Assembly (NCBI RefSeq): GCF_016863435.1
Contig: NZ_BOOW01000045.1
Coordinates: forward strand, 62,001-126,000
Direction: 5' to 3'
Source of the DNA: Sinosporangium siamense
GTDB lineage: Bacteria; Actinomycetota; Actinomycetes; Streptosporangiales; Streptosporangiaceae
Length of the DNA: 64,000 bases
Below are positions 25,659 through 44,848 of this stretch, one piece after another. Every line of letters starts with the position of its first letter. Positions within the stretch are counted from its first letter, which is position 1. Below the pieces are notes generated by a model. It had not been told where the DNA came from, did no database searches, and saw nothing but the letters and a program-made list of their open reading frames with translations. Made by a program: the position numbers and the translations under genes.

Positions 25659-25703
25659 CCCGGTGGCCAGCGGTGCCGGGTGATCAAGATCGCAGACAAG
25701 TTC

Positions 25704-25718
25704 ATAAGCTCCGCTTAT
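25704..25718. promoter_or_regulatory. LysR-type operator 1 (ATAA-N7-TTAT)
   Basis: ATAAGCTCCGCTTAT is a dyad that contains the LysR consensus T-N11-A. It lies 183 bp upstream of the amine-oxidase start. Extended to CATCCC it closely resembles the site at 35860 (ATAACCGTCGCTTAT then CACCCC), and the same spacing occurs at 33997 next to the lysR gene. Confidence 0.62.
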
Positions 25719-25900
25719 CATCCCGCGCACAGACCTTCTTGGACGTCCCTCACGATGCATGTCAAGGTCGTTCCAACCAGCCGAAATCCCGGAAAAGACC
25801 CGGGAAAGAATGGACGACCTGTCGCCTGGGCTCCGCCGTACTCGGACCGTGTGACCTGTGCGAACGGTCGTTCTCTCGTGCTTCGTGAGGAGACGGTTAT

Positions 25901-27892
25901 TTGTCCAGCACCCTTGGATATGGCGAGGACCTCGGTGCGGCCGGGCCCGCCCATCCGCTCGAACCGCTGAGCCCGGAGGAGATCGGGCGCGCCTCCGCCA
26001 TCCTCGCGCGCGATCGTGGGCTCAAAGACGACCACCGGTTCGTGTTCATCGAGTTGCACGAGCCGCCCAAGGAGGTCGTCAACGGGTTCCGTGCCGGGGA
26101 CACGTGGGCCAGGCAGGCGTTCGTCGTGCTGCGGGACCGCACCTTCCACCGGACGCTTGAGGCCGTCGTCGACCTGTCCGCCGACAGCGTGGTCAGCCTT
26201 ACGGAGATCCCCGACGCTCAGGCGCCGATGACCAAATACGAGCTGGCGAACTGCAGAGCCGTGATTCGCGCGGATCCCCGCTGGCAGGAGGCGATGCGCA
26301 AGCGCGGCGTCACCGACTTCTCCCTGGTCACCATCGACAAGTGGGCCAGCGGATACACCGGTCCCGAGGACGCGCCCGAGCGGCGGCGCATCGCGCGGCC
26401 GCTCACCTACGTCAAGGACTCGCCGCGCGGCAACGCCTACGCCAGGCCGGTGGAGAACCTCGTCGTCACGGTCGACCTGGACGCGATGGAGGTGCTCGAC
26501 GTCACCGACACCGGTGTGGTCGCGCTCCCACCGACCAACGGCGACTACCGGCCGGACCAGATCGCCGATCCGCGTAACACCCCGGTCTTCGAGTCGGTGC
26601 GCGAGCCGATGAAGCCGATCGTCGTCGAACAGCCGGAAGGGCGCTCGTTCACGATCGACGGGCACGCGCTGACCTGGGCGAACTGGCGGCTTCGGATCGG
26701 CTACACCCCCCGCGAGGGGCTGGTGCTGCACCAGATCTCCTACGCCGACCGCGGGGTCGAACGCCCGGTGATCTACCGGGCGTCGCTCTCCGAGATGTAC
26801 GTGCCGTACGGCGACCCTGGCGACACCCACTGGAACAAGAACGTCTTCGACGAGGGTGAGTACGGCCTCGGCGGCATGGCCAACAGCCTCGTGCTGGGGT
26901 GCGACTGCCTGGGCGACATCGCCTACATGGACGCCTACGTCAACGACCAGACCGGGCAGGCGGTGCGGATCCCGAACGCCATCTGCATCCACGAGGAGGA
27001 CGCCGGCATCGGGTGGAAGCACACCGACACCGACGGCGCCGGCTTCGTGCGCCGCAACCGGCGGCTTGTGATCTCGGTGTTTACGACGGTCGGCAACTAC
27101 GACTACGGGTTCTACTGGTATCTGTATCTCGACGGGTCGATCGAGTTCGAGTCCAAGCTCACCGGAATTCTGTCCACCGGTGCCGTGGAGGCCGGCGTCA
27201 CCCCCGGATACGGCACTCTTGTCGCGCCCGGGCTTTACGGCCCCAACCACCAGCATTTCTTCGGCCTCCGCCTCGACATGGCGGTCGACGGCGAACGCAA
27301 CGACTTCTACGCCGTGCACAGCGAGGCCGCCCCCGACGAGGAGAACCCCTGGGGGAACGCCTGGCGGCAGGTCGTGACCCACCTTGACACCGAGCACGCG
27401 GCCCGCCAGCTGGCCGACCCGGCCGCGGGCAAGGCGTGGCTCGTCGCGAACTCCGAAAAGCGCAACGCGCTGGGGTCCCTGATCGCCTACAAGGTCGAGC
27501 TGGGGGGCTCCCTCACCATGCCGTTCGCCCGGCCCGGCTCGCAGCAGGCCAACCGCGGCGGCTTTACGGCGAAGCACATCTGGGCCACCCCGTACGACTC
27601 GCGCGAACGTTACGCGGCGGGGGAATACGTGGCGCAGCACCCCGGTGGCGACGGCCTGCCGGCCTACACCGAGGGCAACCGTTCGCTCGCCGCCGCCGAC
27701 CTGGTCATCTGGCCTGTGCTCTGCGCGCACCACGTCACACGCCCCGAGGACTGGCCGGTCATGCCGGTCGCCACCGTGGGGCTGCACCTCAAGCCGGTCG
27801 GGTTCTTCGACGGCAACCCCATGCTCGACCTGCCCGCCGAGCGCGGCCACGGTGAGGCCGCCGCGTGCCACACCGACGGTCACCGGCACTGA
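25901..27892 (+). CDS. Copper-containing amine oxidase
   Basis: 663 aa from a TTG start with GAGGAGA about 9 nt upstream. It oxidises a primary amine to the aldehyde with release of ammonia and hydrogen peroxide. VGNYDYG contains Tyr400, the precursor of the topaquinone cofactor; Asp317 (NVFDEGEY) is the catalytic base; His450, His452 (NHQHF) and His629 bind copper. In Arthrobacter phenylethylamine oxidase the residue two before the base is the gate Tyr296; here it is Val315, which may change substrate size. No signal peptide, so it is cytoplasmic like other Arthrobacter-type enzymes. It is the first gene of the LysR-linked cluster. Confidence 0.92.
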   Translation: MSSTLGYGEDLGAAGPAHPLEPLSPEEIGRASAILARDRGLKDDHRFVFIELHEPPKEVVNGFRAGDTWARQAFVVLRDRTFHRTLEAVVDLSADSVVSLTEIPDAQAPMTKYELANCRAVIRADPRWQEAMRKRGVTDFSLVTIDKWASGYTGPEDAPERRRIARPLTYVKDSPRGNAYARPVENLVVTVDLDAMEVLDVTDTGVVALPPTNGDYRPDQIADPRNTPVFESVREPMKPIVVEQPEGRSFTIDGHALTWANWRLRIGYTPREGLVLHQISYADRGVERPVIYRASLSEMYVPYGDPGDTHWNKNVFDEGEYGLGGMANSLVLGCDCLGDIAYMDAYVNDQTGQAVRIPNAICIHEEDAGIGWKHTDTDGAGFVRRNRRLVISVFTTVGNYDYGFYWYLYLDGSIEFESKLTGILSTGAVEAGVTPGYGTLVAPGLYGPNHQHFFGLRLDMAVDGERNDFYAVHSEAAPDEENPWGNAWRQVVTHLDTEHAARQLADPAAGKAWLVANSEKRNALGSLIAYKVELGGSLTMPFARPGSQQANRGGFTAKHIWATPYDSRERYAAGEYVAQHPGGDGLPAYTEGNRSLAAADLVIWPVLCAHHVTRPEDWPVMPVATVGLHLKPVGFFDGNPMLDLPAERGHGEAAACHTDGHRH

Positions 27893-27904
27893 GCGGCGCG
27901 TCCC

Positions 27905-28348
27905 GTGGTTCAACCGTCGCGCCGGGCGCGGGTGCCGGTCATGGTCGCGGCGGTGTGCGCCGTCTCGCAGGCCGCGCTGCACCTGCTGTTCATCGGCTCG
28001 CTTCCCGGGCCGACCGCCGTGCTCACGGTCGTGCTGGCCCTCGCGTGCGCGCTCTGCGCGATCGAGGTGTGGCTGCGGCCACGTCCTCACGCGTGGGCGA
28101 TGATGCTCGTCCTCAGCGTCACCATGATCGTCGTACACATCGGCCTCGGCCATGACGGCGCGGTGACGCACACGGCGGGCCACCACGGGGGCCATCTTGA
28201 CGAACGGACTCCGCTGACAGGCTTCGCGGGTCTCGCGATGAGCGCGGCGATGTGGCTCGCCCTCGCCGAGACGGTCCTGGCCGCCGGGGTGCTGCTGGGG
28301 GTCGCCTGGCGCCGGATCACTCCAGGAAGGAACAGAACGTGTCCATGA
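27905..28348 (+). CDS. Small His-rich integral membrane protein
   Basis: 147 aa, GTG start 13 bp after the amine-oxidase stop, so the two are co-transcribed. Four membrane helices are visible (about 13-33, 37-56, 62-80, 108-132). Between helices 3 and 4 lies a His-rich loop (HIGLGHDG..HTAGHHGGH) of seven histidines in about 25 residues, which suggests metal binding. Next to a copper enzyme this could be a copper-handling protein, but no CopD/PcoD or other named family is recognised with certainty. Confidence 0.6.
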   Translation: MVQPSRRARVPVMVAAVCAVSQAALHLLFIGSLPGPTAVLTVVLALACALCAIEVWLRPRPHAWAMMLVLSVTMIVVHIGLGHDGAVTHTAGHHGGHLDERTPLTGFAGLAMSAAMWLALAETVLAAGVLLGVAWRRITPGRNRTCP

Positions 28349-28433
28349 CGAGACCACGATAAACCGCCGGGCGGCGCCAGCGGGGGAACGCCACCTGTCC
28401 GATCAGCGAACGCCGTCGCGTATGCGGAGGAGC

Positions 28434-29570
28434 ATGTCCGTGAAGACTGGATGGGTCTACAAAGACGAGTACAACTGGTACGACATGGGGAGAAGCCCAG
28501 GGCTGATCCCTCCCGGGAGATTCGTCGAACCAGGCGATCACCTAGATCAACCGGACACCCGCCGCCGCGCCGCCTCGCTGGTCCACACAAGCGGGCTGGC
28601 CGAGCGTCTGACGCCGCTGCGGGTGGCCCCGGCGAGCGACACCGAGCTACTGCGGGTGCACACCCGCGACTACCTGGATTTCCTGATCGAGCAGGACGCC
28701 CTCCCCAAGGGCGGTTACGCGGACCGGGGAATCTGGCGCACACCGTTCGGCCCGGGCGATCTGGAGATCGCCCGGCTGAGCGCCGGCGGGGTCGTCGCCG
28801 CCGCCAGGGCCGTGATGGAAGGCACGGTGCAGAACGCATATGCACTCGTGCGCCCGCCCGGCCACCACGCCCTCCCCGACCGGGGCATGGCTCTCTGCGT
28901 GTTCGCCAACGTGGCTCTCGCCGTACAGGCCGTGCGCCACGAGTACGGCGTGAGCCGCGTCGCAGTGATCGACTGGGACGTTCACCACGGCAACGGCACG
29001 CAGGAGATCTTCTGGGACGACCCGGACGTGCTGACCGTGTCGATCCATCAGGACCGGCTTCTGCAACTCAGCACAGGAGACGCCGACGAGGTGGGCGGCC
29101 CCGGCGCGCTCGGCGCGTGTGTGAACGTCCCCCTTCCGCCGGGGTCGGGAACACATGCCTACCGGGAGGCGTTCCGCAGGATCGTCATCCCGAGAGTGCG
29201 CGACTTCGGCCCCGAGCTGATCGTGGTGGCCAGTGGCTACGACGCGTCCTTCTTCGACCCCAACGGCCACATGCTGCTGGGGGTCAGGGACTACCGGTGG
29301 ATGACCGAACAGGTCATGGAACTGGCAGCCGGCACCTGTGAGGGGCGGCTCGTCGTGGCCCACGAAGGCGGCTACTCGCCGTGGTATGTCCCCTTCTGCA
29401 TGCTCGCCGTCGTCGAGACGCTGGCCGGGGAGCTGACCGAGGTGGGGGATCCCGTGGGGTTCATCGTCGAGGGGAATCCCTTTCAGGAGATCTCACCGGA
29501 CCAGGCACGCGCCGTCGACCGCGTCGAGGCGGCGCTGAACGCGGCCACACATCCGCGGCCGGCGTCATGA
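28434..29570 (+). CDS. Histone-deacetylase-fold amidohydrolase (class II HDAC / acetylpolyamine type)
   Basis: About 378 aa. The SD sequence GGAGGAG at 28426-28432 leaves two choices, ATG 28434 (very close) or GTG 28440 (better spacing). It is a zinc amidohydrolase: RPPGHHA (catalytic His pair), VIDWDVHHGNG (zinc Asp and His), ASGYDASFFDPNG (third zinc ligand) and HEGGYS near the end. Bacterial members deacetylate acetylpolyamines or other acylated amines; few act on proteins. Next to an amine oxidase and an importer, removal of an acyl group from an imported amine before oxidation is plausible. Its stop overlaps the next gene (ATGA). Confidence 0.87.
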   Translation: MSVKTGWVYKDEYNWYDMGRSPGLIPPGRFVEPGDHLDQPDTRRRAASLVHTSGLAERLTPLRVAPASDTELLRVHTRDYLDFLIEQDALPKGGYADRGIWRTPFGPGDLEIARLSAGGVVAAARAVMEGTVQNAYALVRPPGHHALPDRGMALCVFANVALAVQAVRHEYGVSRVAVIDWDVHHGNGTQEIFWDDPDVLTVSIHQDRLLQLSTGDADEVGGPGALGACVNVPLPPGSGTHAYREAFRRIVIPRVRDFGPELIVVASGYDASFFDPNGHMLLGVRDYRWMTEQVMELAAGTCEGRLVVAHEGGYSPWYVPFCMLAVVETLAGELTEVGDPVGFIVEGNPFQEISPDQARAVDRVEAALNAATHPRPAS

Positions 29571-30337
29571 GGGCCTCGTGGCGGCGCGGACTGATCGGGA
29601 CCGCCGCCTTCACGGCGCTTCTCGAACTCCTTCCGCGCACGGGCCTGGTCGACCCCGGCTATCTGCCGACGGCGAGCACGATCGCCGGAGCCCTGGCCGG
29701 CGAACTCTCCCGCGAGGCGTTCTGGTCCGCGCTCCTCGACACCGTGCGGGGCTGGGCCACCGGGCTGGGCGTCGCGATCGTCACCGGCGTCGCCGTAGGA
29801 GTCGTCGTCGGCGTCGTGCCGGGGCTTCGGGCGCTGACCGCGTCGACAGTCGAGTTCCTGCGCCCCATCCCGTCGGTGGCGCTGATTCCGCTCGCCGTCC
29901 TGATGTTCGGCACCAGCATGGAATCCACCCTGATGCTGATCGTCTACGCGAGTTTCTGGCAGGTCCTCGTGCAGGTCCTCGACGGGGTGCGCGACATCGA
30001 CCCGGTCACGCACGAGACCGCGCGCAGTTACGGCTTCGGGGTGTTCACCCGGATCCGGGTCGTCGTCTGGCCCACGGCGCTGCCCCATGTCATGACCGGC
30101 ATGCGCCTGGCGGCGACGGTCGCGCTCGTGCTCGCGATCACCGGTGAACTGGTCATCGGATCCCCGGGCCTCGGCCGCCAGATCGCCCTCGCGCAGTCCG
30201 CCGGCGCCGTCGAGACGATGTACGGCCTCGTGGTCGTCGCCGGCCTGTTCGGGGTCGTGGTGAACCTGTCGATCCGGGCCGCCGAGCGCCGCGCCCTGCG
30301 CTGGCACGTTTCAGTACGCCGAGAGAACGCCGTGTGA
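29567..30337 (+). CDS. ABC importer permease (NitT/TauT type), first subunit
   Basis: 256 aa from ATG 29567, overlapping the HDAC-fold gene by 4 bp; the frame is open earlier but the overlap fixes the start. About six membrane helices and the EAA-like loop (ETARSYGFGVFTRIRVVVWPTALPH) that contacts the ATPase mark it as a BPD-transport permease of the nitrate/sulfonate/taurine group. It forms the importer with the next three genes; two permeases suggest a heterodimer. The substrate is probably the compound degraded by the surrounding enzymes. Confidence 0.88.
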   Translation: MRASWRRGLIGTAAFTALLELLPRTGLVDPGYLPTASTIAGALAGELSREAFWSALLDTVRGWATGLGVAIVTGVAVGVVVGVVPGLRALTASTVEFLRPIPSVALIPLAVLMFGTSMESTLMLIVYASFWQVLVQVLDGVRDIDPVTHETARSYGFGVFTRIRVVVWPTALPHVMTGMRLAATVALVLAITGELVIGSPGLGRQIALAQSAGAVETMYGLVVVAGLFGVVVNLSIRAAERRALRWHVSVRRENAV

Positions 30338-30363
30338 CACGCGTCTCCACGCCGAGAGAACGC
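30316..30363 (+). repeat. 15-bp direct repeat at the permease junction
   Basis: ACGCCGAGAGAACGC occurs at 30316-30330 (end of the first permease gene) and at 30349-30363 (ribosome site of the second). It looks like a small duplication that supplied a new leader for the second gene. Confidence 0.7.
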
Positions 30364-30365
30364 AT

Positions 30366-31130
30366 ATGAGATTCATCCGTTCCATCGCCATCGTCACGAT
30401 CCTGCCCGCCGGCCTCGTCACCGCATGGTGGTTCGTCTCACTGGGCAGCGACAACTTCTTCTGGCCGCCGCTGCGCGACATCCTCGGCACGGTGCCCTCG
30501 ACCTGGCTCGAAGGACGCCTGCAGGCCGACGTCGGACCCTCGCTGCTGCGGCTCGCCGTGGGATATCTGCTCGCCCTGCTCATCGGAGTGCCGACCGGCC
30601 TGGCCATCGGTCTCTCGACTCCGTTGCGGCAATATTGCGAACCGGTCTTCGAGTTCCTGCGGTCGATTCCCCCGCCGGTCCTGGTTCCCGTCATCATCCT
30701 CTTCGCCGGCATCGGCGACACCATGAAGGTCGTCGTCATCGCGTTCGGCTGCGTGTGGCCGATCCTGCTCAACTCAGTCGAAGGCGCCAGGGCCATCGAC
30801 GAGGTGCTTCACGACACCACGCGGATCTATCGCCTAAGCCCGGTGTCGAGATTCCGGCACCTGCTGCTGCGCGGCGCGAGCCCGCACATCGTCACCGGGG
30901 CGCGCCAGGCCCTGTCGATCGCCGTCATCCTCGTGGTCATCAGCGAGATGTTCGCGGCGAGCAACGGGCTCGGATTCACCATCGTGCAGTTCCAGCGGTC
31001 GTTCGCCATCCCGCAGATGTGGTCCGGCATCCTGCTGCTCGGCGCCATCGGGGTGACCCTCGCGTTCGTCTTCAGACTCGTCGAGAACCGCGTCCTGGCC
31101 TGGTATTTCGGCCTTCGCCGTAAGCAATAG
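30366..31130 (+). CDS. ABC importer permease (NitT/TauT type), second subunit
   Basis: 254 aa, with GAGAGAA upstream of ATG. Six membrane helices and an EAA-like loop (DTTRIYRLSPVSRFRHLLLRGASPH) are present. It is similar in plan but not near-identical to the preceding permease. The pair, one ATPase and one lipoprotein complete a high-affinity importer. The 28-bp gap to the first permease contains the second copy of a 15-bp repeat. Confidence 0.88.
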   Translation: MRFIRSIAIVTILPAGLVTAWWFVSLGSDNFFWPPLRDILGTVPSTWLEGRLQADVGPSLLRLAVGYLLALLIGVPTGLAIGLSTPLRQYCEPVFEFLRSIPPPVLVPVIILFAGIGDTMKVVVIAFGCVWPILLNSVEGARAIDEVLHDTTRIYRLSPVSRFRHLLLRGASPHIVTGARQALSIAVILVVISEMFAASNGLGFTIVQFQRSFAIPQMWSGILLLGAIGVTLAFVFRLVENRVLAWYFGLRRKQ

Positions 31131-31197
31131 AACCCGCACGACAGGTCGCGGGCGACGGCTCTCAGGCGACAGGTCGCAAGCAAAAAGAAGGGGCCCC

Positions 31198-32046
31198 ATG
31201 ACCCTCACACCCGTGCTCGCCGTGGACCACGTCAAGAAGGTCTACACGACCGGCACCCGTCACGTCGAAGCCGTCCGGGACCTGCACTTCGATGTGGCGC
31301 GGGGCGAACTCGTCTGCGTCGTCGGCCCCTCGGGCGCCGGCAAGACGACACTCCTGCGGTGCATCGCGGGGCTGATGGACGTCACGGCGGGCGAGGTCCG
31401 GCTGGAGGGCTCGGCCATCTCCGGCCCGCCCCGCGGCATGGCGGTCGTCTTCCAGGAATACGGGCGCAGCCTGTTTCCGTGGATGACGGTCCGCGGCAAC
31501 GTCGAACTGCCGCTCAAGGAGAAGAAGGTTCCCCGCGCCCGGCGCACCGTCCTGGTCGACGAGGCGCTCGCCACGGTGGGGCTCGACCACGTCCACGACT
31601 CCTACCCCTGGCAGCTCTCCGGCGGCATGCAGCAGCGCGTCGCCATCGCCAGGGCCGTGGCCTACGAGCCGCACATCCTTTTGATGGACGAGCCGTTCGC
31701 CGCCGTCGACGCGCAGACGCGCGCCGACCTGGAGGACCTCATCCGCGAGTTGTGGGCGCGGCTGCGGGTCACGGTCCTGTTCGTCACCCACGACATCGAC
31801 GAGGCCGTCTACCTCGGCGAACGCGTGCTCGTGTTGTCGAACTCGCCCACGGTCGTCCTTGAGGACGTACGGATCGACCTGCCCGGCGAGCGCGACCAAC
31901 TCGGCACGAGGGCCCTCCCGAGGTTCGCCGAGCTCCGCGCCCACGTCTACGGACTCGTTCAACAGGCCAAACGGGGCGTGCGGGCCGTTCCGGCCGACGC
32001 GAGCCCGGCCGGCCAAACCTTGCAATACGAAAGGAAGCCCTCATGA
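31198..32046 (+). CDS. ABC importer ATP-binding protein (NitT/TauT type)
   Basis: 282 aa, with AAAGAAGGGG before ATG. All ATPase motifs are intact: Walker A GPSGAGKTT, Q-loop VFQEYGRS, signature LSGGMQQR, Walker B ILLMDEPF, and H-loop FVTHDIDEA. Sequence style is SsuB/TauB/NrtD. It energises the two permeases just upstream. Its last codons overlap the binding-protein gene (ATGA), so subunit ratios are linked by translation. Confidence 0.92.
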   Translation: MTLTPVLAVDHVKKVYTTGTRHVEAVRDLHFDVARGELVCVVGPSGAGKTTLLRCIAGLMDVTAGEVRLEGSAISGPPRGMAVVFQEYGRSLFPWMTVRGNVELPLKEKKVPRARRTVLVDEALATVGLDHVHDSYPWQLSGGMQQRVAIARAVAYEPHILLMDEPFAAVDAQTRADLEDLIRELWARLRVTVLFVTHDIDEAVYLGERVLVLSNSPTVVLEDVRIDLPGERDQLGTRALPRFAELRAHVYGLVQQAKRGVRAVPADASPAGQTLQYERKPS

Positions 32047-33002
32047 AACGTGTGGGGAAAACGCTCTCGGCCATGGTGGCGCTCACTGTCGCGGCGGCCT
32101 GCGGGGGAGGGGGAGAGGAGGCCGGCGGGTTAAAGGAGGTGACCATCGGTCTCGTGCCCGCCGCCGTCACGGCTGCCATCCATGTGGGCATCGACCAGAA
32201 GTTCTTCGAAGCCGAGGGACTGAAACTGACCGTCGAGACGGGGCAGGGCGGGGCCGCACTCCTCCCCGCCGTCTCGTCGGGGCAGATGGAGTTCGCCTCC
32301 AGCACGCCGGTCTCGCTGCTGCTGGCCAGGGACCGGGGGCTGGACGTGCGCGTCATCGCCCCGTGGACGGGTGACGGCACGTCGGCCGGCGGCACGGTCA
32401 AGTCGTCGAACGTCGTGCTCGCCAAGGATCCCGCCGTACGGTCCGCCAAGGATCTGGAAGGCCGGACCGTGGCCATCAACGCGCTCCGCAGTGTCGGCGA
32501 CCTGACGATCCGCGAGGCCGTGCGCCACGCCGGCGGCAATCCGGACCGGGTCAGTTTCGTCGAGATGGGATTCGCGGACATGCCGGGCGCCCTTGCCCAG
32601 GGGCACGTCGACGGGATCTGGACGGCCGAGCCCTTCATCAGCACCTTGGTCGCCAAGGGGAACCACGCGGTGAAGGAGACGAACAACTCCGACGCCGTCC
32701 CCGACATGGCGACCCAGCTCATCTTCACGTCGAAGAAGCTGGCCGACAATGATCCCGAGCTTGTGGCCGCCATGACGCGTGCGCTGAACAAGACCCTGGT
32801 GCACGTGAAGGAGAACCCCGAGAAGGTGCGGGCGCATGTGCCCACCGTTCTCAAGCAGCTCGACCCGGAGATCGTCAAGCGGCTCGATCTCGACGTGTTC
32901 GAGACCGAGGTGCGCCGCGCCCCGCTTGAGCGCATCGGTCAGTTGCTGGAGCTGGAGAAGTGGATCAACTCTCCGGCGGACGTCGGCGGGCTGCTGCCTT
33001 GA
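32043..33002 (+). CDS. ABC substrate-binding lipoprotein (NMT1/SsuA-like)
   Basis: 319 aa. Signal peptide with lipobox AAAC (Cys20), so it is tethered outside the membrane. The two-lobe fold typical of SsuA/THI5-like proteins is seen: VTIGLVPAAVTAAIHVGIDQKFFEAEGL at the start, SGQMEFASSTP, FADMPGALAQGHVDGIWTAEPF. It delivers the ligand to the permeases. The family binds aliphatic sulfonates, nitrate, pyrimidine precursors or aromatic acids; residues that would decide are not readable by eye. It is the last gene before the convergent lysR. Confidence 0.88.
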   Translation: MKRVGKTLSAMVALTVAAACGGGGEEAGGLKEVTIGLVPAAVTAAIHVGIDQKFFEAEGLKLTVETGQGGAALLPAVSSGQMEFASSTPVSLLLARDRGLDVRVIAPWTGDGTSAGGTVKSSNVVLAKDPAVRSAKDLEGRTVAINALRSVGDLTIREAVRHAGGNPDRVSFVEMGFADMPGALAQGHVDGIWTAEPFISTLVAKGNHAVKETNNSDAVPDMATQLIFTSKKLADNDPELVAAMTRALNKTLVHVKENPEKVRAHVPTVLKQLDPEIVKRLDLDVFETEVRRAPLERIGQLLELEKWINSPADVGGLLP

Positions 33003-33071
33003 GCCCAGGCGGCGGTGGCCGCGTGGGGCCGTGGAGGCTTCACCGTACAGGACAGAGCCGATTCGAGGCGC

Positions 33072-33998
33072 TCAGCCGGTCTCCGTCCGAGGAATGGTGG
33101 TCGCGGCGAACGTGGATCTGATCAAGCCGATCAGCGGCCGTGTGAAGGGGTGCGGTGCGTCGCGGTGCTGCGCGACCACGATGTCGAGCACCTCATCCTC
33201 GATCGGGACAAAAGCCAGGTCGTCCCAGCCGGGAGGCTGGTTGGGCACCACGGTGACGCCGAGGCCCGCGCGCACGAGGCCGAGCATGGTCTCGGCGTTG
33301 GCCGCCGAGACGACGATGTTGGGTGTGAACCCGTGCTTGACGCACAGGGCCACGAAGTTCTCGGCGTACAGGCCGGTGGCCCCGACCCACGCCTGGCCCG
33401 CGAGCTCGGTGAGATCCACCGACTCCCTGGCGGCGAGCGGATGGTCGGCGCGCACGGCGACGAACCGCTGAGTGCTCCCGACCCGCATCAGGTGGAGCGC
33501 CGAGGTGTCGAGGTCGAGCACGTCCGGCAGATGGAAGATGGCCAGATCGATCATCTGGTTGCGGATCGCGTGGAGCAGGTCGTCGAAGACATACGACTCG
33601 AGCACGACCTTCAGCTCGGGTGAGTCACGCTCGACCATGGCCATCAGCTTGGGGATCTCCGTGCGCGCCCAGGTCGTGATGTAGCCGATCCTGATCCGGC
33701 TCTCACTCGGGCGAAGCGCCATCTGGATCGGTCGCAGGGTGTCGCGCAGGTCGCCCAGCGCACGCTCGGCGGCGCGGAGCAGCTCCGTGCCCTCCGCGGT
33801 CAGACGCACGCCGGAGGAGGAACGGTCCAAAAGCGTGAATCCGAGTTGCCGTTCCAGTTTCTTGATCTGCTGGCTCACCGCGGGCTGCGAGACGTAAAGG
33901 ATCTCGGCCGCCCGCCGGTAGCTCAGCTCGCGTCCGACCACGACAAAGGTTTCGAGGATGCGCAGGTCGAAGCCCAGCCTGGTCGCCGAGAAGGTCAT
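33072..33998 (-). CDS. LysR-type transcriptional regulator of the cluster
   Basis: 308 aa. An N-terminal winged helix (residues 8-67: LRILETFVVVGRELSYRRAAEILYVSQPAVSQQIKKLE) and a two-lobe co-inducer domain (about 95-300) are complete. It lies on the minus strand inside a plus-strand cluster and diverges from the flavoprotein gene across 93 bp. A T-N11-A dyad (33997-34011) touches its own start codon, which fits autorepression plus activation of the neighbour. Two matching dyads at 25704 and 35860 extend the likely regulon to the amine oxidase and SDR blocks. The co-inducer is presumably the substrate or an intermediate. Confidence 0.9.
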   Translation of the reverse strand: MTFSATRLGFDLRILETFVVVGRELSYRRAAEILYVSQPAVSQQIKKLERQLGFTLLDRSSSGVRLTAEGTELLRAAERALGDLRDTLRPIQMALRPSESRIRIGYITTWARTEIPKLMAMVERDSPELKVVLESYVFDDLLHAIRNQMIDLAIFHLPDVLDLDTSALHLMRVGSTQRFVAVRADHPLAARESVDLTELAGQAWVGATGLYAENFVALCVKHGFTPNIVVSAANAETMLGLVRAGLGVTVVPNQPPGWDDLAFVPIEDEVLDIVVAQHRDAPHPFTRPLIGLIRSTFAATTIPRTETG

Positions 33999-34011
33999 AA
34001 CCCCAGCTTAT
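33997..34011. promoter_or_regulatory. LysR-type operator 2 (ATAA-N7-TTAT), at the lysR start
   Basis: ATAACCCCAGCTTAT contains T-N11-A and overlaps the lysR initiation codon. It lies 81 bp before the divergent flavoprotein gene. A second weaker dyad, TTTCA (34061-34065) and TGAAA (34079-34083), lies nearer the flavoprotein start and may be an additional site. Confidence 0.65.
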
Positions 34012-34091
34012 CGGCACTGGTCCACTCCGTCTTGGAGGGATGAGCTGCAACTTTCAATCATTTCAACGGACAGTTCGCTGAAAGGAGTCCC

Positions 34092-35843
34092 ATGACGCAA
34101 CGCAAGCGTTCGATCGTCGTCACGTCCGTGCGGGACATCCCGGAGGACGGCGAGTACGACGTCGTGGTGCTGGGGGCCGGCGCGGCGGGACTCGCCGCCG
34201 CGCTGTTCGCCGGGTTGCGCGGCGCACGCGTCTTGATCGTCGAAAGCAGTGAGCACATCGGCGGCACAAGCGCGCTCACCGCGGGCACACTCTGGCTGCC
34301 GGGCGCGCACCCCGCCGACGGCAGGCCGGCCGAGGAGGACCGGCGGCTCGCGGGCCGCTACCTCGAACGCGCGCTAGGCGATGACTCCCTCACTCACCTG
34401 CGGGAACGTTTCCTCGGCGAGGCGGCGGAAGCCGTCGCCCTCCTGGAGCGCCGCACGCTGGTGAGCTTCGTCCGGCGCGATCACCACCCCGACTATCTGG
34501 GCTCCGTCGAGGGGGCGGCGGTCTCCGGGCGGGCGCTCGAGGCCGTCGACTTCGACGGCAGGCTCCTCGGCCCCGACCTGAGGTTCGTGCGCCCGCCGCT
34601 GCGGAACTTCACCATCCTGGGCGGCCTGGCGCCGGGCCGGGACGAGGTACGGCGCTACTCGGTGATCGCGGCCCGGCCGGTGAGCCGGGAGGCGCTGGTG
34701 AACGCCGTCACCGCGCTCCCGCGTGTCGTGCGGCACCTGGTCGACCTGCTGGTCTACCGGCGCACATCCCGGCTGACCCTGGGCAACGCGTTGATCGGCC
34801 GCCTGCTCGCCTCACTGAGACGGCTCGGCACGGCCCGCGTCGTCGTGAACGCCGAACCGGTGGAGCTCGCCCGCGGCCCCGGCGGGGCGCACACCGTCAA
34901 GATCACCGACGGGCGGGCGACCAGGACCGTCCGTGCGGCGCGGGCATTGATCAGCGCCACCGGCGGGTTCTCCCGAGGGGTACGGAGAACGGAGGTCCTC
35001 GGCGACCTCCCGCTGGAGTGGAGCGCCGTGGCCGGCAGCGCGAAGGCCACCGCCCACAGCCTGCTCGAAAGCGCAGGGGCCGTCTTCGGACGGCAGGGCA
35101 CCGACGCGTTCTGGGCCCCGGTCTCGCTGACACCCGGACGTCACGGCGGGAAACCTGATCCCTATCCGCATTTCGCGCTCGACCGCGGCAAACCCGGCTT
35201 CGTCATCGTCGACCGGCTGGGAAGGCGTTACCTGAACGAGGCTTCGCCGTACCACGTGGTGGGGGAGCGGATGCTCGCGCACGGCGAGCGGGACGGGCTG
35301 CCCAGCTATCTGATCGCCGATCACCGGGCCGTCATGCGTTATGGAATCGGCGCGGTCAGGCCGGGAGGATGGGGCACCAGGCGGCGGCTGCGCGACGGCT
35401 ATCTCACGCGCGCCCGCGACCTGGACGATCTCGGCGACCGGCTGGGCATGCCGCCGGGGCGGCTGCGCGAGACGGTGCGGCGGTTCAACACCTTCGCCGG
35501 ACAGGGGAAGGACCCCGACTTCGGGCGCGGGGACGACCCCTACCAGCGCGGCCTCGGCGACGCCCGGCATCGGCCGAATCCCTCGCTGGGCTCCCTCACG
35601 CGGCCGCCGTTCTACGCCGTCCGGATCTTTCCGGGCGACATCGGCTCCGCCTCGGGGTTCGTCACCGACGAGAACGCCCGCGCGCTCGACGCCGGCGGGC
35701 GGCCCATCGACGGGCTCTACGTGCTCGGCAGCGACATGCGCTCGATCATGGGAGGCGGATATCCGGGTCCCGGCATCACCCTCGGTCCCGCGATCGTGTT
35801 CGCCTATCTCGCGGTCGAAGACGCGCTCACGCGAAGCGGGTGA
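34092..35843 (+). CDS. FAD-dependent dehydrogenase (fumarate reductase / ketosteroid-dehydrogenase family)
   Basis: 583 aa with AAAGGAG before ATG. VVVLGAGAAGLAAALFA is the N-terminal FAD Rossmann motif with the acidic end VESSE. IGGTSALTAGTLWLPG, and near the C-terminus GGGYPGPGITLGPAIVFAYLA, are the FAD-binding signatures shared by 3-ketosteroid-delta1-dehydrogenases and urocanate/fumarate reductases. It probably introduces or reduces a C=C bond next to a carbonyl. The first gene after the divergent LysR site, so it is a likely direct target. The nearby genes show no steroid pathway, so a steroid substrate is not favoured. Confidence 0.82.
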   Translation: MTQRKRSIVVTSVRDIPEDGEYDVVVLGAGAAGLAAALFAGLRGARVLIVESSEHIGGTSALTAGTLWLPGAHPADGRPAEEDRRLAGRYLERALGDDSLTHLRERFLGEAAEAVALLERRTLVSFVRRDHHPDYLGSVEGAAVSGRALEAVDFDGRLLGPDLRFVRPPLRNFTILGGLAPGRDEVRRYSVIAARPVSREALVNAVTALPRVVRHLVDLLVYRRTSRLTLGNALIGRLLASLRRLGTARVVVNAEPVELARGPGGAHTVKITDGRATRTVRAARALISATGGFSRGVRRTEVLGDLPLEWSAVAGSAKATAHSLLESAGAVFGRQGTDAFWAPVSLTPGRHGGKPDPYPHFALDRGKPGFVIVDRLGRRYLNEASPYHVVGERMLAHGERDGLPSYLIADHRAVMRYGIGAVRPGGWGTRRRLRDGYLTRARDLDDLGDRLGMPPGRLRETVRRFNTFAGQGKDPDFGRGDDPYQRGLGDARHRPNPSLGSLTRPPFYAVRIFPGDIGSASGFVTDENARALDAGGRPIDGLYVLGSDMRSIMGGGYPGPGITLGPAIVFAYLAVEDALTRSG

Positions 35844-35859
35844 CTCTCGTTGCCCGACA

Positions 35860-35874
35860 ATAACCGTCGCTTAT
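35860..35874. promoter_or_regulatory. LysR-type operator 3 (ATAA-N7-TTAT)
   Basis: ATAACCGTCGCTTAT followed by CACCCC lies in the 87-bp gap before the SDR gene, 57 bp upstream of its ATG. It is nearly the same as the site at 25704 over 21 positions. This suggests an internal LysR-controlled promoter for the long downstream block. Confidence 0.62.
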
Positions 35875-35930
35875 CACCCCTGTCGCGCTCGATATTGGAC
35901 GCGCCGAGGCCGACTGGAGAAGGTTCAGAC

Positions 35931-36662
35931 ATGCCAATTCACGATGCGGGGACACCTGGTGCCGCGGTCGTCACCGGAGGCGCGCGCGGGATCGGCGCCG
36001 CCTGCGCCGCCCGGCTCACCGCGAATGGGCAGCCGGTCGTCGTCTGGGATCGCGAGGCCCCCGAGCACGCGATCCAAGGCGTCGACTACGTGCCGGTGGA
36101 CGTCGGCAAGGCGGACGACGTCGCTCGTGCGGCGTCGGCGCTCGGCCGGGTCGACCTGCTGATCAACGCGGCGGGCGTCACCGGGTTCGGGCGGGCGGAG
36201 GACATCACTCCGGAGTTGTGGCGCGAGGTGCTGGAGAGCAACCTGTACGGGTCGTTCCACACGGCGCACGCGCTCTTCGCCGCACTTCGCCGGGCCAAGG
36301 GGCAGATCGTCAACATCGCCTCGATCACCGCGGGTGTTCCCGGAGAGGGCAGAGTCGCCTACTGCACCTCGAAGGCGGGCGTGGTGACGATGACCAAGGT
36401 GCTCGCCCTGGAGTGGGCGGCCCACGGCATCCGGGTGAACTGCGTCAGCCCGGGATACACGAGAACCCGCATGGTGCAGGACGCGTTGAACGCCGGCCAT
36501 CTCGACGAGCGGGCCATTCTCCGCCGCACGCCTCAAGGGCGTCTCGCCGAGCCAGGGGAGATCGCCGACGCCGTGCTCCTGCTCACCGACGAGCGACTCT
36601 CCCACGTGACCGGCGACAACCTCGTGATCGACGGCGGATGGTCGGTCAACGGCGCCTACTGA
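35931..36662 (+). CDS. SDR-family oxidoreductase
   Basis: 243 aa from ATG 35931, chosen for the GGAGAAGG site; the frame is open from 35850 but without an SD. TGGARGIG cofactor loop, NAAG after strand 4, catalytic Ser in NIASITAG and Tyr-x3-Lys in YCTSKAG, and the C-terminal GDNLVIDGGW are all typical of classical NAD(P)-dependent SDRs such as FabG-like alcohol dehydrogenases. It probably oxidises an alcohol or reduces a ketone intermediate of the cluster. The APC permease follows after a 92-bp gap with small repeats. Confidence 0.87.
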   Translation: MPIHDAGTPGAAVVTGGARGIGAACAARLTANGQPVVVWDREAPEHAIQGVDYVPVDVGKADDVARAASALGRVDLLINAAGVTGFGRAEDITPELWREVLESNLYGSFHTAHALFAALRRAKGQIVNIASITAGVPGEGRVAYCTSKAGVVTMTKVLALEWAAHGIRVNCVSPGYTRTRMVQDALNAGHLDERAILRRTPQGRLAEPGEIADAVLLLTDERLSHVTGDNLVIDGGWSVNGAY

Positions 36663-36754: not shown

Positions 36755-38230
36755 ATGGGCAACAGCACAGTTGCACCAGAAGGCAAGGAGACACCGGCCC
36801 GTCTCTCCGGCTCGCTCGGGGTCGTCTCCATCGTGTTCATGGTTGTCGCGGCCGCGTCGCCGCTCGTTGTCGTCGGTAGCGTCTCCCCGCTTGGCATTAT
36901 GATCGGCAACGGCGTCGGCTTCCCGGCGCTGTTCGCGATCGGCGCCGTCATCCTCGTGCTCTTCGCAGTGGGGCTTACGACGATGACGCGCCACGTGCCC
37001 AAACCGGGTGCGTTCTTTACTTTCGTCGGCTACGGCCTCGGACCCGCCGCCGGTATCGTTGCCGCGTGGCTCGCGATCCTGGCCTACACCTCCGTGCAGA
37101 TCGCTGTGCACGCCTACATGGGATATGTCCTTAGCGGCGCCCTGAGCTCGCTGGGTGGCCCGGCGCTGCCGTGGTGGTTGTGCTCGCTGCTGGTCATCGC
37201 CCTGGTCGGTTATCTCGGCTATCGCAACATCGACCTGTCGAGTAAGGTCCTCGGCTTCATGCTCGTGCTTGAGGTCGGCATCGTGCTCGCCCTGGTGGTC
37301 GCGGTGCTCATCACCGGCGGCGACTCCGGGCTCGACCTGTCGCCCTTCGACCCGGCCAACATCGTGAGCGGCTCGCCCGGCATCGGGCTGATGTTCGCGA
37401 TGGGGTCGTTCATCGGTTTCGAGGCGACGGTCGTCTTCCGCGACGAGGCACGCGATCCCACCCGCACCATCCCCCGCTCGACATACGCCGCCGTGATCGG
37501 CATCGGCGTCTTCTACACCCTCGCCGCCTGGTCGATCGTCATGGCCTGGGGCTCGGACAAGGTGGTCGCCAAGGCCACGGAGGACCCCGGCACCATGATC
37601 TTCGCGACCATGCACCGCTACCTCGGCGTGCTCGGCGAGAAGGGCGTCAACTTCCTGCTGATCACCGCGATGCTGGCGTGTGTGCTGGCCTTCCACAACG
37701 TGCTCGCGCGCTACCAGCACTCGATGGCGAACGCGGGGGTCCTACCGCGCGCGTTGTCCGGCATCCACCCGCGGCACCGGTCGCCGCACACGTCGTCGCT
37801 CGTGCAGACGGTCACCGCGGGGGCGCTGATCGCGGTCTTCGCGGTCCTCGGCCTGGACCCGGTCTTCGCGGTGTTCACACCGCTCGGCGGCGTCACGAAC
37901 CTGGCGATCGCCCTGCTGATCACGCTGACATCCGTCGCGATCCTGGTCTACTTCGCCAAGACGAAGGTCGACAGGCGCCCCTGGAACACCGTGATCGCCC
38001 CCGTGCTGGGCCTCATCGGCATGGTCGCCGCGGCGGTCCTGATCGTCGCGTATTTCCCGCTGCTTGTCGGCGACGTCGACGCCGAGGGCAACCAGGTGGT
38101 CGGCGGCGTGACGATCCTGCTGCTCGGACTGATCGCCGCCTTCCCCGTCCTAGCGCTGATCCAGGCAGCCGTGATCAAGAAGCGTAACCCCGCCTCCTAC
38201 GAGGAGATGATCGAGCGCGTCGGCGCTTGA
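36755..38230 (+). CDS. APC-superfamily amino acid/amine permease
   Basis: 491 aa with GGTAAGGAG upstream. About 12 membrane helices; the first carries SIVFMVVAAASPLVVVGSVSPLGIMIGNG, with the unwound glycine-rich motif of APC transporters, and MGSFIGFEATVVFRDEARDPTRTIPRS is the conserved helix-6 to loop region. It imports or exchanges an amino acid or amine by proton symport. Together with the ABC system it gives the cluster two transport routes, perhaps for the acylated and free forms of the substrate. The C-terminus is cytoplasmic and short. Confidence 0.88.
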   Translation: MGNSTVAPEGKETPARLSGSLGVVSIVFMVVAAASPLVVVGSVSPLGIMIGNGVGFPALFAIGAVILVLFAVGLTTMTRHVPKPGAFFTFVGYGLGPAAGIVAAWLAILAYTSVQIAVHAYMGYVLSGALSSLGGPALPWWLCSLLVIALVGYLGYRNIDLSSKVLGFMLVLEVGIVLALVVAVLITGGDSGLDLSPFDPANIVSGSPGIGLMFAMGSFIGFEATVVFRDEARDPTRTIPRSTYAAVIGIGVFYTLAAWSIVMAWGSDKVVAKATEDPGTMIFATMHRYLGVLGEKGVNFLLITAMLACVLAFHNVLARYQHSMANAGVLPRALSGIHPRHRSPHTSSLVQTVTAGALIAVFAVLGLDPVFAVFTPLGGVTNLAIALLITLTSVAILVYFAKTKVDRRPWNTVIAPVLGLIGMVAAAVLIVAYFPLLVGDVDAEGNQVVGGVTILLLGLIAAFPVLALIQAAVIKKRNPASYEEMIERVGA

Positions 38231-38245
38231 CCGGAAAGGAACCCT

Positions 38246-38338
38246 ATGAGCACCACGGACATCGATGCACCCGCCGCGTGCGCGCCACCCCCGGGGGCCG
38301 GTGTCGAGGGCCCGCACCCGCACGGGTGGGTGAGGTAG
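38246..38338 (+). CDS. 30-codon small ORF between permease and amidase
   Basis: ATG 38246 is preceded by GGAAAGGA at ideal spacing. The product has 30 residues (MSTTDIDAPAAC, then a Pro/Gly-rich tail with HPHGW) and no membrane segment. The stop is 3 bp before the GTG of the amidase, whose own ribosome site (GGTGAGG) lies within it, so translation of one may promote the other. It may be a leader peptide, a tiny functional protein, or the remains of a longer gene. No family is recognised. Confidence 0.45.
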   Translation: MSTTDIDAPAACAPPPGAGVEGPHPHGWVR

Positions 38339-38341
38339 ATC

Positions 38342-39709
38342 GTGCCTGAAGACAAGGCGGTCACCCAGCCGAGCGTGCGCGAGCTGCGCCGCGGGATCCG
38401 CGCGGGCGAGACGAGCGCGCTGGAGTCGGTCGAGAGGTCGCTCGCCGCGATCGACGCCCTCGACGCCGGACTGCACTCCTTCATTTGGGTCGACCGCGAC
38501 GCGGCCCGCGCGGAGGCCCGGCGGGTCGACGCCGAGCTGGCGGCCGGACGCGACCTGCCCCTCGCGGGCGTCACGGTCGGTGTGAAGGACAACATCGACG
38601 TCGGGGGGCGGGTGACGCAGGCCGGCAGCCGCGTGCTGGCCGGGCGTGTCCCCACGGAGGACGCGACTGTCGTCGCCCGGTTGCGGGCGGCGGGCGCGGT
38701 TGTCGTCGGCAGCACCAACATGCACGAGTTCGCGCTCGGCGGCACCAGCGAGAACCCGCACTTCGGCACGGTCAACAACCCGCTCGGCGCGGGTCTGTCG
38801 CCCGGCGGCTCGTCGGGCGGCTCGGCGGCGGCGGTCGCGGCCGGTCTCACCATGGTCGCCCTGGGCACCGACACGTGCGGTTCGATCCGTATGCCCGCCT
38901 CACTCACCGGGACGGTGGGGATGCGCCCCACGGCGTGGACCGTGCCGCTGCACGGAGTCGTCCCGCTCGCCCTCAGCATGGACACGGCCGGCCCGATGAC
39001 CCGGACGATCGGCGACAACGTGGAGATCCTCCAGGTCCTCTCCGGCCGCACACTGCGGCGACCGCGAGCGGCCCGTGTCCGCCTGCTCACCCACCGGCTG
39101 GACGACGTGGCGAACGCCGTGCGGGAGACCATGGCCGAAGTGGTCGACAATCTCCGCGGCCGGGTGCGGCTCGACCGCGACGCGGACACCGGATGGGTGC
39201 CGGAGAGCGTCGACGTCGCGGTCACCACCTTCCTGCGCGAGGCGGCCGACCTGCACGAGGTGTGGCTGCGGGAACGTCCGGACGAATACGGCGCGGACGT
39301 GCGCGGCTCTCTGGAGCAGGGCACGCTCATCTCCCGCGACGACTATCTGAACGCGGCGGCCCGCCGGTTCGAACTCGCGCACCGCGCCCGCCGCGGTCTC
39401 GGCCCGGACGGAATCCTCGTGCTGCCGGTCTTCCCGTTCACGAGGGTCACGCAATACACCGACACCGTCGAGACGGCTCCGGGGAGCTTCGAGGATCGTG
39501 ACGCCGCCATGCTCCGCTACATCAGCGCGGCCGCCGTCACCGGCCTGCCCGCCCTGAGCGTCCCCGGCGGGCACGACCCGGACGGACTGCCGATCGGCGT
39601 GCAGTTGATCGGCGCTCCAGGCACGGAGGCAGAGTTGTACGGCCTGGCCAGGCTGATCGTCGCCGGAAACGCACTCGACGACGCACATGACGGTGAGGAT
39701 GTTTCGTGA
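38342..39709 (+). CDS. Amidase-signature family hydrolase
   Basis: 455 aa, GTG start. The Ser-cisSer-Lys triad is complete: Lys in VGVKDNID, the first Ser in SPGGSSGGSAAA, and the nucleophile in GTDTCGSIRMPA. Amidase-signature enzymes cleave amides or short-chain carbamoyl groups; some are allophanate or aryl-acyl amidases. The C-terminal region lacks the extra domain of allophanate hydrolase. With the HDAC-fold enzyme it is the second amide-cleaving enzyme in the cluster. Its TGA overlaps the next GTG (GTGA). Confidence 0.88.
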   Translation: MPEDKAVTQPSVRELRRGIRAGETSALESVERSLAAIDALDAGLHSFIWVDRDAARAEARRVDAELAAGRDLPLAGVTVGVKDNIDVGGRVTQAGSRVLAGRVPTEDATVVARLRAAGAVVVGSTNMHEFALGGTSENPHFGTVNNPLGAGLSPGGSSGGSAAAVAAGLTMVALGTDTCGSIRMPASLTGTVGMRPTAWTVPLHGVVPLALSMDTAGPMTRTIGDNVEILQVLSGRTLRRPRAARVRLLTHRLDDVANAVRETMAEVVDNLRGRVRLDRDADTGWVPESVDVAVTTFLREAADLHEVWLRERPDEYGADVRGSLEQGTLISRDDYLNAAARRFELAHRARRGLGPDGILVLPVFPFTRVTQYTDTVETAPGSFEDRDAAMLRYISAAAVTGLPALSVPGGHDPDGLPIGVQLIGAPGTEAELYGLARLIVAGNALDDAHDGEDVS

Positions 39710-41121
39710 CCTTTAGCGAGCCGGACGACCCCGGAGGCCGCGGACCGGCCGTGCGTGTCGGACGGCCCGGGGGAGACGTCGTCCACGAGGAGGCCGGCGC
39801 GGTTCCCGTCGCCGCCACTTTCGACGTGGTCGTCGTGGGCGGCGGCCCTGCAGGGGTGTGCGCGGCGATCGCCTCGGCCAGGACGGGCGCGCGCACCGCA
39901 CTGGTCGAGCGGGCCGCCTTCCTCGGCGGCACCGCCACCGGCGCGATGGTCGCGAGCTTCATGGGCTTCTTCTGGAACGACCTGCGCGTCGTGGGCGGCA
40001 TCCCGCTGGAGGTGACCGAACGCCTTGTCGCCCGCGGCGCTTCCCCCGGGTTCGGGCGTTACGTGCTGGCCGAGGCCAGCGACAACCCCGTGAACGTGAT
40101 CACCTTCCCGTTCGACCCGGAAGTGCTCAAGATCGTGCTCGACGAGATGCTGGTCGAGGCGGGCGTCACCCCCTATCTCCACGCGCAGGCCGTCGAGCCC
40201 GTGATGGAACGCTCCGGGTGCGTGGGCGTCGTCTACCAGGGCCCGGTGGAGCGCAGGGCGCTCCTCGCCACGACGGTGATCGACGCGAGCGCCCACGGCT
40301 CGATCGCGGTCAAAGCGGGTGCGGAGCGGGAGAGCGCACGCGACGACCCCCGGAAACGCCAGCCGATGACGCAGATCGCCCGCGTCGTCGGGGTCGACGT
40401 GGGGCGGTTCAGGGCCCTGCCGCGCGAGGAGAAGCAGCGCATCGCCGAGGAGGGGCTGCGCCGGGGCGTGCTGGCCCAGAAACTGCTGCCGGTCCTCAGC
40501 TCACCGCACGGCGACGACGCCATCGTCTTGATGACCCGCGTCACCGGCCGCGACGGCACCGACGAGTCCGAGCTTGGGCTGGCAGAGATCGAGGGACGCC
40601 GGATGATCGACGGGCTGATCCCCTTCCTCCGCGGAGAGCTGCCCGGCTTCGAGAACGCGCGTCTCGGCACGCTGGCCTCCTGGATCGGGGTGCGGGAGAC
40701 CTGGCGGGTCATCGGCCACTACGTCATGGACGAGCACGACGTCCTGGCGGGCACGGCCTTCGAGGACACGATCGCGCTCGGGTCGGGGCCGCTCGACATC
40801 CATCACCACCGCGGCGACGGGATCTCGCTCGTCGTGCCCGACCGGCCGTTCCCCATCCCCTACCGCGCCCTTGTGCCGCGCGGGGTCGACGGCATGCTCG
40901 TCGCGGGCCGCTGCGTGTCGGCCACCCGCAAGGGAATGGCGGGGCTGCGGCACATGGGCACGGCCATGGCCCTCGGCCAGGCGTCGGGGACGGCGGCGGC
41001 GCTCAGCGCCGGCAAGGCCGTCGCGCCGCAGGCACTCGACACAGCCGTGCTGGCGGCGGCGCTCACCCGCGACGGTGCTCTTCTCGACGCCGCGGCGGCT
41101 GTGCCGTTCGAAGAGCCGTGA
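39706..41121 (+). CDS. FAD-dependent oxidoreductase (FAD_oxidored family), first copy
   Basis: 471 aa, GTG start overlapping the amidase stop. After an atypical 36-residue N-terminal extension comes VVVVGGGPAGVCAAIASARTG (FAD ADP-binding loop), then FLGGTATGAMV. MLVAGRCVSATRKGMAGLRHMGTAMALGQASGTAAAL at about 400-440 is the C-terminal FAD signature of the PF12831 group. The reactions of this family are almost unknown. A second member lies 2.1 kb downstream, so the two may act on successive intermediates or form a heteromer. Confidence 0.82.
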   Translation: MTFSEPDDPGGRGPAVRVGRPGGDVVHEEAGAVPVAATFDVVVVGGGPAGVCAAIASARTGARTALVERAAFLGGTATGAMVASFMGFFWNDLRVVGGIPLEVTERLVARGASPGFGRYVLAEASDNPVNVITFPFDPEVLKIVLDEMLVEAGVTPYLHAQAVEPVMERSGCVGVVYQGPVERRALLATTVIDASAHGSIAVKAGAERESARDDPRKRQPMTQIARVVGVDVGRFRALPREEKQRIAEEGLRRGVLAQKLLPVLSSPHGDDAIVLMTRVTGRDGTDESELGLAEIEGRRMIDGLIPFLRGELPGFENARLGTLASWIGVRETWRVIGHYVMDEHDVLAGTAFEDTIALGSGPLDIHHHRGDGISLVVPDRPFPIPYRALVPRGVDGMLVAGRCVSATRKGMAGLRHMGTAMALGQASGTAAALSAGKAVAPQALDTAVLAAALTRDGALLDAAAAVPFEEP

Positions 41122-41167
41122 TCGGGCTTTTCCACGGGAGCAACGACAGGACTGGAGAGACGCGGAG

Positions 41168-42730: not shown

Positions 42731-43185
42731 CACAGCACATCACCCGGACGGTCGTCTCCGGCAGGAGAGCACTGACCGCCGTCGAGGCCGCGTTGCACCA
42801 CGCGGGCGACGTCAGGATCACCGTTGTCGTCGTGGACCGGGCGGGAGTTCTCGTCGCCGCGTGCCGGCACGAGGACGCATTGCCCGCCACCTCCGACCTC
42901 GCACTGGCGAAGGCACGCGCCGCGGCCGGATTCGCCAAACCCGCCGAAGCGCTCGCCGGCGTCGTGCAGCCGGGGGCACCGTACTTTGGTCTGCCCGCGG
43001 CGGTCGCCGCACCGATCGCGACATTCGCCGGGGGGCTGCCGTTGCTGGACGACGGCTACTGCTTCGGCGCCGTCGGTGTCAGCGGCGGCACCGGAGAGCA
43101 AGACGCCGATATCGCGAGGGTGGCCGTGTCGGCCTACCTCGATCAGGCGCAGCCGTCCGCCGATCCGGCACACAGCAATGAGTAA
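42727..43185 (+). CDS. GlcG/HbpS-family protein (heme-binding-like)
   Basis: 152 aa from ATG 42727. The family pattern is clear: ITVVVVDRAGVLVAACRHEDA, then LALAKARAAAGF, then GGLPLLDDGYCFGAVGVSGGTGEQD. Relatives include Streptomyces HbpS (extracellular heme sensor) and GlcG of glycolate operons; many sit beside flavin dehydrogenases in catabolic operons and may act as small-molecule binders or accessory subunits. There is no signal peptide, so unlike HbpS it stays in the cell. It overlaps both neighbours, which suggests a complex with one of the flanking flavoproteins. Confidence 0.8.
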   Translation: MTQHITRTVVSGRRALTAVEAALHHAGDVRITVVVVDRAGVLVAACRHEDALPATSDLALAKARAAAGFAKPAEALAGVVQPGAPYFGLPAAVAAPIATFAGGLPLLDDGYCFGAVGVSGGTGEQDADIARVAVSAYLDQAQPSADPAHSNE

Positions 43186-44836: not shown

Positions 44837-44848
44837 CCAGGAGACCTC

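Follow-up and report, generated by a model that had tools for sequence, protein, structure and literature searches.

We predict with high confidence, from sequence features, that three ATAA-N7-TTAT dyads found in a 64,000-nucleotide stretch of the Sinosporangium siamense genome (this whole stretch is referred to as the window) are operators of the adjacent LysR-type regulator and form a local regulon. The three copies front neighbouring gene blocks and are kept in related bacteria, so it is very probable that the nearby LysR protein switches these blocks together. The preliminary description of the window had proposed that blocks which look separate are joined in one regulon. The specificity of a composite motif and its conservation in orthologous loci make this a well-supported prediction, and the case is stronger than was stated there. 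The dyads and the regulator gene are as follows.

25704..25718, + strand: dyad of predicted operator 1, ahead of the copper amine oxidase unit; kept in Sinosporangium album
33997..34011, + strand: dyad of predicted operator 2, over the lysR start codon and facing the gene of a flavin adenine dinucleotide (FAD)-binding oxidoreductase; same position in S. album and Jiangella endophytica
35860..35874, + strand: dyad of predicted operator 3, between the FAD oxidoreductase and short-chain dehydrogenase (SDR) genes; present in S. album, with a degraded copy in J. endophytica
33072..33998, - strand: lysR, encoding a LysR-type transcriptional regulator of 308 amino acids (aa), with Pfam domains HTH_1 and LysR_substrate

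All three sites were found with the coordinates, arms and N7 spacing originally reported, and each 15-bp dyad contains the T-N11-A sequence characteristic of LysR-type operators. A scan of the window with the exact pattern revealed no fourth copy, as claimed, and the three occurrences compare with a mean of 0.01 in shuffled sequences. A looser 16-bp version with three mismatches showed no excess (8 window matches versus 5.2 expected, a level reached by 18 of 100 shuffles), so no hidden weaker copies were seen in the window. The sites had also been described as non-coding. This holds for sites 1 and 3, located in the intergenic gaps 25659-25900 and 35844-35930, respectively, whereas the first two bases of site 2 belong to the start codon of lysR (33996-33998, CAT when read on the + strand). 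The reported likeness of sites 1 and 3 over 21 bp amounts to 17 identical positions, the remainder being different. The lysR product matches HTH_1 (1.6e-21) and LysR_substrate (1.1e-30), which identifies it as a LysR-type regulator; its score against the CynR equivalog NCBIfam NF008416 is 111.4 bits and thus below the cut-off of 277 bits.

The preliminary description missed a second element. The sequence TTGGA begins exactly 35 positions from the first A of each site (25739, 34032 and 35895), which places it 30 bp from the dyad centre. When triples of 70-base stretches were drawn at random from the window, 12 of 20,000 had a run of at least five identical bases at one offset. The hexamers that include this element are listed below.

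25739..25744, + strand: TTGGAC of predicted operator 1, 20 bp after the dyad; proposed activation site and -35 box
34032..34037, + strand: TTGGAG of predicted operator 2 (TTGGAC in S. album)
35895..35900, + strand: TTGGAC of predicted operator 3

The bare 15-mer occurs at 7 places in the 8.86-Mb genome, and its backward control also at 7. By itself it is thus not enriched across the genome, and the bare 15-mer was dropped as genome-wide evidence. Three of the seven places fall within the 10.2 kb considered here. The other four are located on contigs C12, C14, C28 and C36, and no relative of this LysR was detected (tblastn, E <= 1e-4) in the corresponding loci L001-L004, of about 3 kb each. The signal resides in the clustering of the sites and in the second element. 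The composite ATAA-N7-TTAT-N20-TTGGA is present three times in the genome, always at this cluster; with TTGGAC and up to two mismatches, two further genomic places were found versus 4 for the backward control. A genome scan for random matches had been suggested as a check: the composite passes it without excess, the bare 15-mer less well, with four of its seven places elsewhere.

On contig C36 (G000:C36:170930-171081) the starts of a bare ATAA-N7-TTAT and of a two-mismatch composite are separated by 111 bp; the locus L004 contains no relative of this LysR.

Comparison of homologous loci had been proposed as another check. Among the best 79 of the loci listed, close relatives of the LysR protein were found in S. 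album (91% identity) and J. endophytica (62%), while the others reach at most 35%. The S. album genome carries three composites at syntenic places. Between it and the window the dyad arms and TTGGA are unchanged and the spacers vary; in the alignments of the three surrounding gaps the identical columns number 159 of 245, 77 of 149 and 67 of 89. In J. endophytica, which belongs to another order, a perfect composite lies over the lysR start, and lysR directly faces the amine oxidase gene. A dyad at or near the regulator's own start, with a divergent target, is present in the window (site 2), in S. album and in J. endophytica. Behind the Jiangella site, genes for an amidohydrolase, two permeases, an ATPase, a solute-binding protein and two FAD proteins follow on one strand, and further on genes for an amidase, a GMC protein, an HbpS-like protein, an FAD protein and an alcohol dehydrogenase. 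Most genes of the seemingly separate blocks of the window are thus arranged in succession on a single strand there.

In the S. album locus (L038, minus strand, about 9868-9925) the gap between lysR and the FAD gene exceeds that of the window by 56 bp. Two copies of CATAAGCAGGT and a variant are found in this longer gap; they are similar to operator half-sites.

A profile was built from the seven perfect sites of the window, S. album and J. endophytica, and these seven score high because they were used to build it. The window sites reach 52.8-54.0, the reverse reading of site 1 scores 9.8 and the next distinct place in the window 2.1. The distance to TTGGA is fixed in all seven sites, with C as the next base in six and G in one. 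Outside its training set the profile found a degraded Jiangella site, ATCA-N7-TTAT-N20-TTGGAC (score 25.3, followed there by 16.1 for the perfect site read in reverse and 7.2 for the next distinct place). It is located directly after an FAD gene and before the next operon, and corresponds to site 3 of the window. Conservation in homologous loci was thereby confirmed: three syntenic sites in S. album, one perfect and one degraded in J. endophytica, and a kept position of lysR relative to the site.

Occurrence of the composite was also compared with that of the regulator. Within the family of Jiangella, the composite and an orthologue of this LysR (E <= 1e-60) are each present in 1 of 22 genomes, and it is the same genome. 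In a class-wide sample, with 5 candidates scored in each genome listed, LysR at E <= 1e-50 was found in 2 of 394 genomes, i.e. those of S. siamense and Jiangella. The composite with TTGGAC occurs in 9 of these 394 genomes, including both, versus 1 control place.

In the family to which the window belongs, 43 composite places were found in 39 of 341 genomes, versus 6 control places; 28 of the 37 loci outside the window's genus were examined. A LysR-type gene that reads away from TTGGA is found at 26 of the 28, with its start 9-10 bases from the arm; in two of the 26 an earlier in-frame lysR start overlaps the arm, as in the window. Among the four new, non-orthologous class-level loci, L125 and L126 have lysR at the site (by eye). 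These two and the 26 family loci made up a 28-locus promoter set. Directly before TTGGAC all 28 loci have GTC, which is outside the search pattern, and in 21 a GATAAC- or CATAAC-like hexamer follows TTGGAC at a spacing of 19 bp. A target with an SDR motif was recognized by script in 24 of the 28, and by eye also in L029 and L037, where the start was misread. The start picked by script lies 66 bp from the dyad centre in 7 of the 28; for the SDR gene of the window the distance is 64 bp. These actinobacterial lysR/SDR pairs share with the window the dyad, the 20-bp gap to TTGGA and a lysR gene starting at the dyad. They differ in that their LysR proteins are only about 27-30% identical to that of the window, each genome has one composite, the usual target is an SDR gene, and the GATAAC-like hexamer is common. 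As a control, the 79 best-listed LysR loci were searched from -150 to +30 of the lysR start for a composite reading away from lysR. It was found in 2, the two orthologues; the bare dyad was found in 7, the other five being in sequences A/T-rich by eye. This control is rough, as many of the loci come from other phyla.

The loci L008-L037, from genomes of the family, present a recurrent divergent lysR/SDR pair with a near-invariant promoter composed of the dyad, GTCTTGGAC and the GATAAC-like hexamer. In some of them the start codon of the target is placed where a leaderless transcript would begin.

BenM and CatM are the nearest solved LysR structures (the best PDB sequence hits), although E-values of 2e-20 and weaker indicate distant kinship. 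Both are catabolic LysR-type activators, and their site is ATAC-N7-GTAT. The dyad is the same as that predicted for Escherichia coli CynR. For this regulator ATAA-n7-TTAT was predicted by phylogenetic footprinting, including sequences that others had proposed earlier, and the first dyad is centred at -66 from the target start site (PMC5002191). The cynR-cynTSX region shares with the present cluster the same 15-bp dyad and a divergent lysR-type gene (PMC5002191). As described there, it contains three dyads in one intergenic region, whereas here each of three promoters has one dyad and TTGGAC. LysR systems are described as having a dyad near -65, together with an activation site that lies at the -35 box or over it (PMC12016517). 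An example is BhbR1 of Pigmentiphaga kullae, for which the site near -65 was footprinted and the -35 box is overlapped by a putative activation site (PMC12016517). It resembles the present case in its 15-bp imperfect dyad with T-N11-A near -65 and its catabolic operon, and differs in its ATA-N9-TAT arms, its substrate and its experimental footprint, the sites described here being predicted (PMC12016517).

The operator reading was adopted because the layout fits both LysR systems of this kind (dyad near -65, activation site at -35) and the CynR dyad. If the dyad is placed at -65, the 30-bp distance puts TTGGAC at -35. Each operator would accordingly be bipartite: the dyad would serve as the high-affinity regulatory binding site, and TTGGAC, 30 bp downstream from centre to centre, as the -35 box of the promoter and probably also the low-affinity activation site of a second LysR dimer. 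The dyad of operator 2 lies over the start of lysR, which it would therefore repress, and is at the same time upstream of the FAD gene on the opposite strand. The amine oxidase/amidohydrolase/ATP-binding cassette (ABC) unit and the SDR unit would be headed by the same module in the form of operators 1 and 3, respectively. We infer that in the presence of a co-inducer, probably an amine or amide substrate or product, the LysR tetramer would shift and recruit RNA polymerase to all three promoters.

Several observations weigh against this interpretation. Only 3 of the 6 bases of the hexamer TTGGAC agree with the -35 consensus of sigma-70, site 2 ends in TTGGAG instead, and the proposed -10 hexamers (CAAGGT, AATCAT and GAAGGT, at a spacing of 18) are weak. 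A consensus promoter scan did not recover any of the proposed promoters; it gave one hit, which overlaps site 1 and is near chance (1 versus a mean of 0.5). Such a failure might be expected of activator-dependent promoters. The orthologous LysR and cluster were seen in three genomes only, two of them congeneric. No match above 40% identity to the SDR and the amino-acid permease of the window was found in the Jiangella stretch compared, and the operon headed by the degraded Jiangella site is a different one, an ABC operon judged by eye to be of the sugar type. In addition, two of the 28 family loci (L016 and L035) have no lysR gene at the composite, and the class-level loci L122 and L124 show no lysR start at the site by script.

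It is improbable that the sites are operators of a different regulator, such as a LysR paralogue or a global factor, that also acts on lysR. The composite can evidently be used by several LysR proteins, since the genes of the distant relatives in other genera mentioned above start beside it, and the S. siamense genome gives 36 first-look candidates for the LysR query. Against this, the only three composites of that genome lie within 10.2 kb, one of them on the start of this very lysR, and in the family of Jiangella the composite and the orthologue share their single genome. Far less credible is the view that the sites are chance A/T-rich palindromes or ordinary promoter boxes without a common regulator. 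The equal genome-wide totals of the bare 15-mer and its control, and the bare copies near the starts of five other lysR genes among the best-listed loci, are what it would predict, but the expectation for the window, the identical TTGGA offset and the excess over control places in 341 genomes speak against it, and conservation across two orders has already largely refuted it. Equally implausible are RNA hairpins (terminator or attenuator) in place of DNA operators: site 1 could form a 6-bp stem (ATAAGC/GCTTAT), but a C-C pair next to the arms ends the stem at 4 bp in sites 2 and 3, no Rfam match reached the gathering score, 0 of 7 terminator-like hits overlap a site, and the distance to TTGGA would have no need to be fixed.

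With the sites taken as operators of the adjacent LysR, their origin can be considered. Possibly, though this is doubtful, the two Sinosporangium promoters derive from a single ancestral one that was shared divergently by lysR and the amine oxidase gene, as in Jiangella, the module (dyad, 20-bp gap, TTGGAC and weak -10) being copied as a unit on rearrangement of the cluster. If so, lysR kept one promoter and the amine oxidase gene the other, and the unity of the regulon outlived the loss of operon unity. The amine-oxidase promoters of the window and Jiangella are similar after TTGGAC (7 of 1000 shuffles were as good, a figure uncorrected for 28 pairs and two regions). A non-corresponding pair (site 3 of the window and site 2 of S. 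album) did equally well, with 5 of 1000 shuffles, which weakens the copying reading; operator copying by duplication is thus only suggestive.

The genes of the three units, apart from lysR, are as follows.

25901..27892, + strand: copper amine oxidase with a TTG start, head of unit 1 (Pfam Cu_amine_oxid; NCBIfam NF008559 above cut-off)
27905..28348, + strand: small protein, unit 1 (no Pfam hit at E <= 1e-8; S. album relative 54% identical)
28422..29570, + strand: histone deacetylase (HDAC)-like amidohydrolase, unit 1 (Pfam Hist_deacetyl)
29567..30337, + strand: ABC transporter permease 1, unit 1 (BPD_transp_1)
30366..31130, + strand: ABC transporter permease 2, unit 1 (BPD_transp_1)
31198..32046, + strand: ABC transporter ATPase, unit 1 (ABC_tran)
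32043..33002, + strand: NMT1/SsuA-like solute-binding protein, end of unit 1
34092..35843, + strand: FAD-binding oxidoreductase, ketosteroid-dehydrogenase-like, unit 2 (FAD_binding_2; NCBIfam hits shown are below cut-off)
35931..36662, + strand: short-chain dehydrogenase, head of unit 3 (ATG 64 bp from the centre of predicted operator 3)
36755..46185, + strand: rest of putative unit 3, in the order amino-acid permease, amidase, FAD oxidoreductase, GMC oxidoreductase, HbpS-like protein, FAD oxidoreductase, zinc alcohol dehydrogenase (syntenic in S. album)

Co-transcription of unit 3 is putative, with a gap of about 300 bp before its last gene. The best solved hits of the HDAC-like protein (28422-29570) include dimethoate hydrolase, HDAH-type amidohydrolases and propanil hydrolase, and these hydrolases may point to amide or anilide substrates. 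The cluster is probably involved in amine degradation, and a plausible route leads from amide uptake through hydrolysis to an amine and its oxidation. Uncharacterized genes for a copper amine oxidase, an HDAC-like amidohydrolase, an ABC importer, flavoenzymes, an SDR and an amidase would thus be brought into one predicted pathway under one regulator, and the inducer of this LysR would provide a handle on the pathway substrate.

In the literature collection searched, no paper on this cluster was found. The novelty is modest, because this kind of system is well known: the control is of an ordinary kind, unusually well supported. A specific composite pattern of 13-14 bases marks a predicted LysR operator in most of the family loci examined, and it can help to assign regulons and start codons when genomes are rich in G+C.

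An Orn/Lys/Arg decarboxylase-like gene (21954-23414) and a long catalase gene (23598-25658) immediately precede site 1 and have its orientation. For neither was a match above 40% identity listed when the window was compared with the stretches of S. album and Jiangella, and the conserved cluster therefore seems to begin at site 1.

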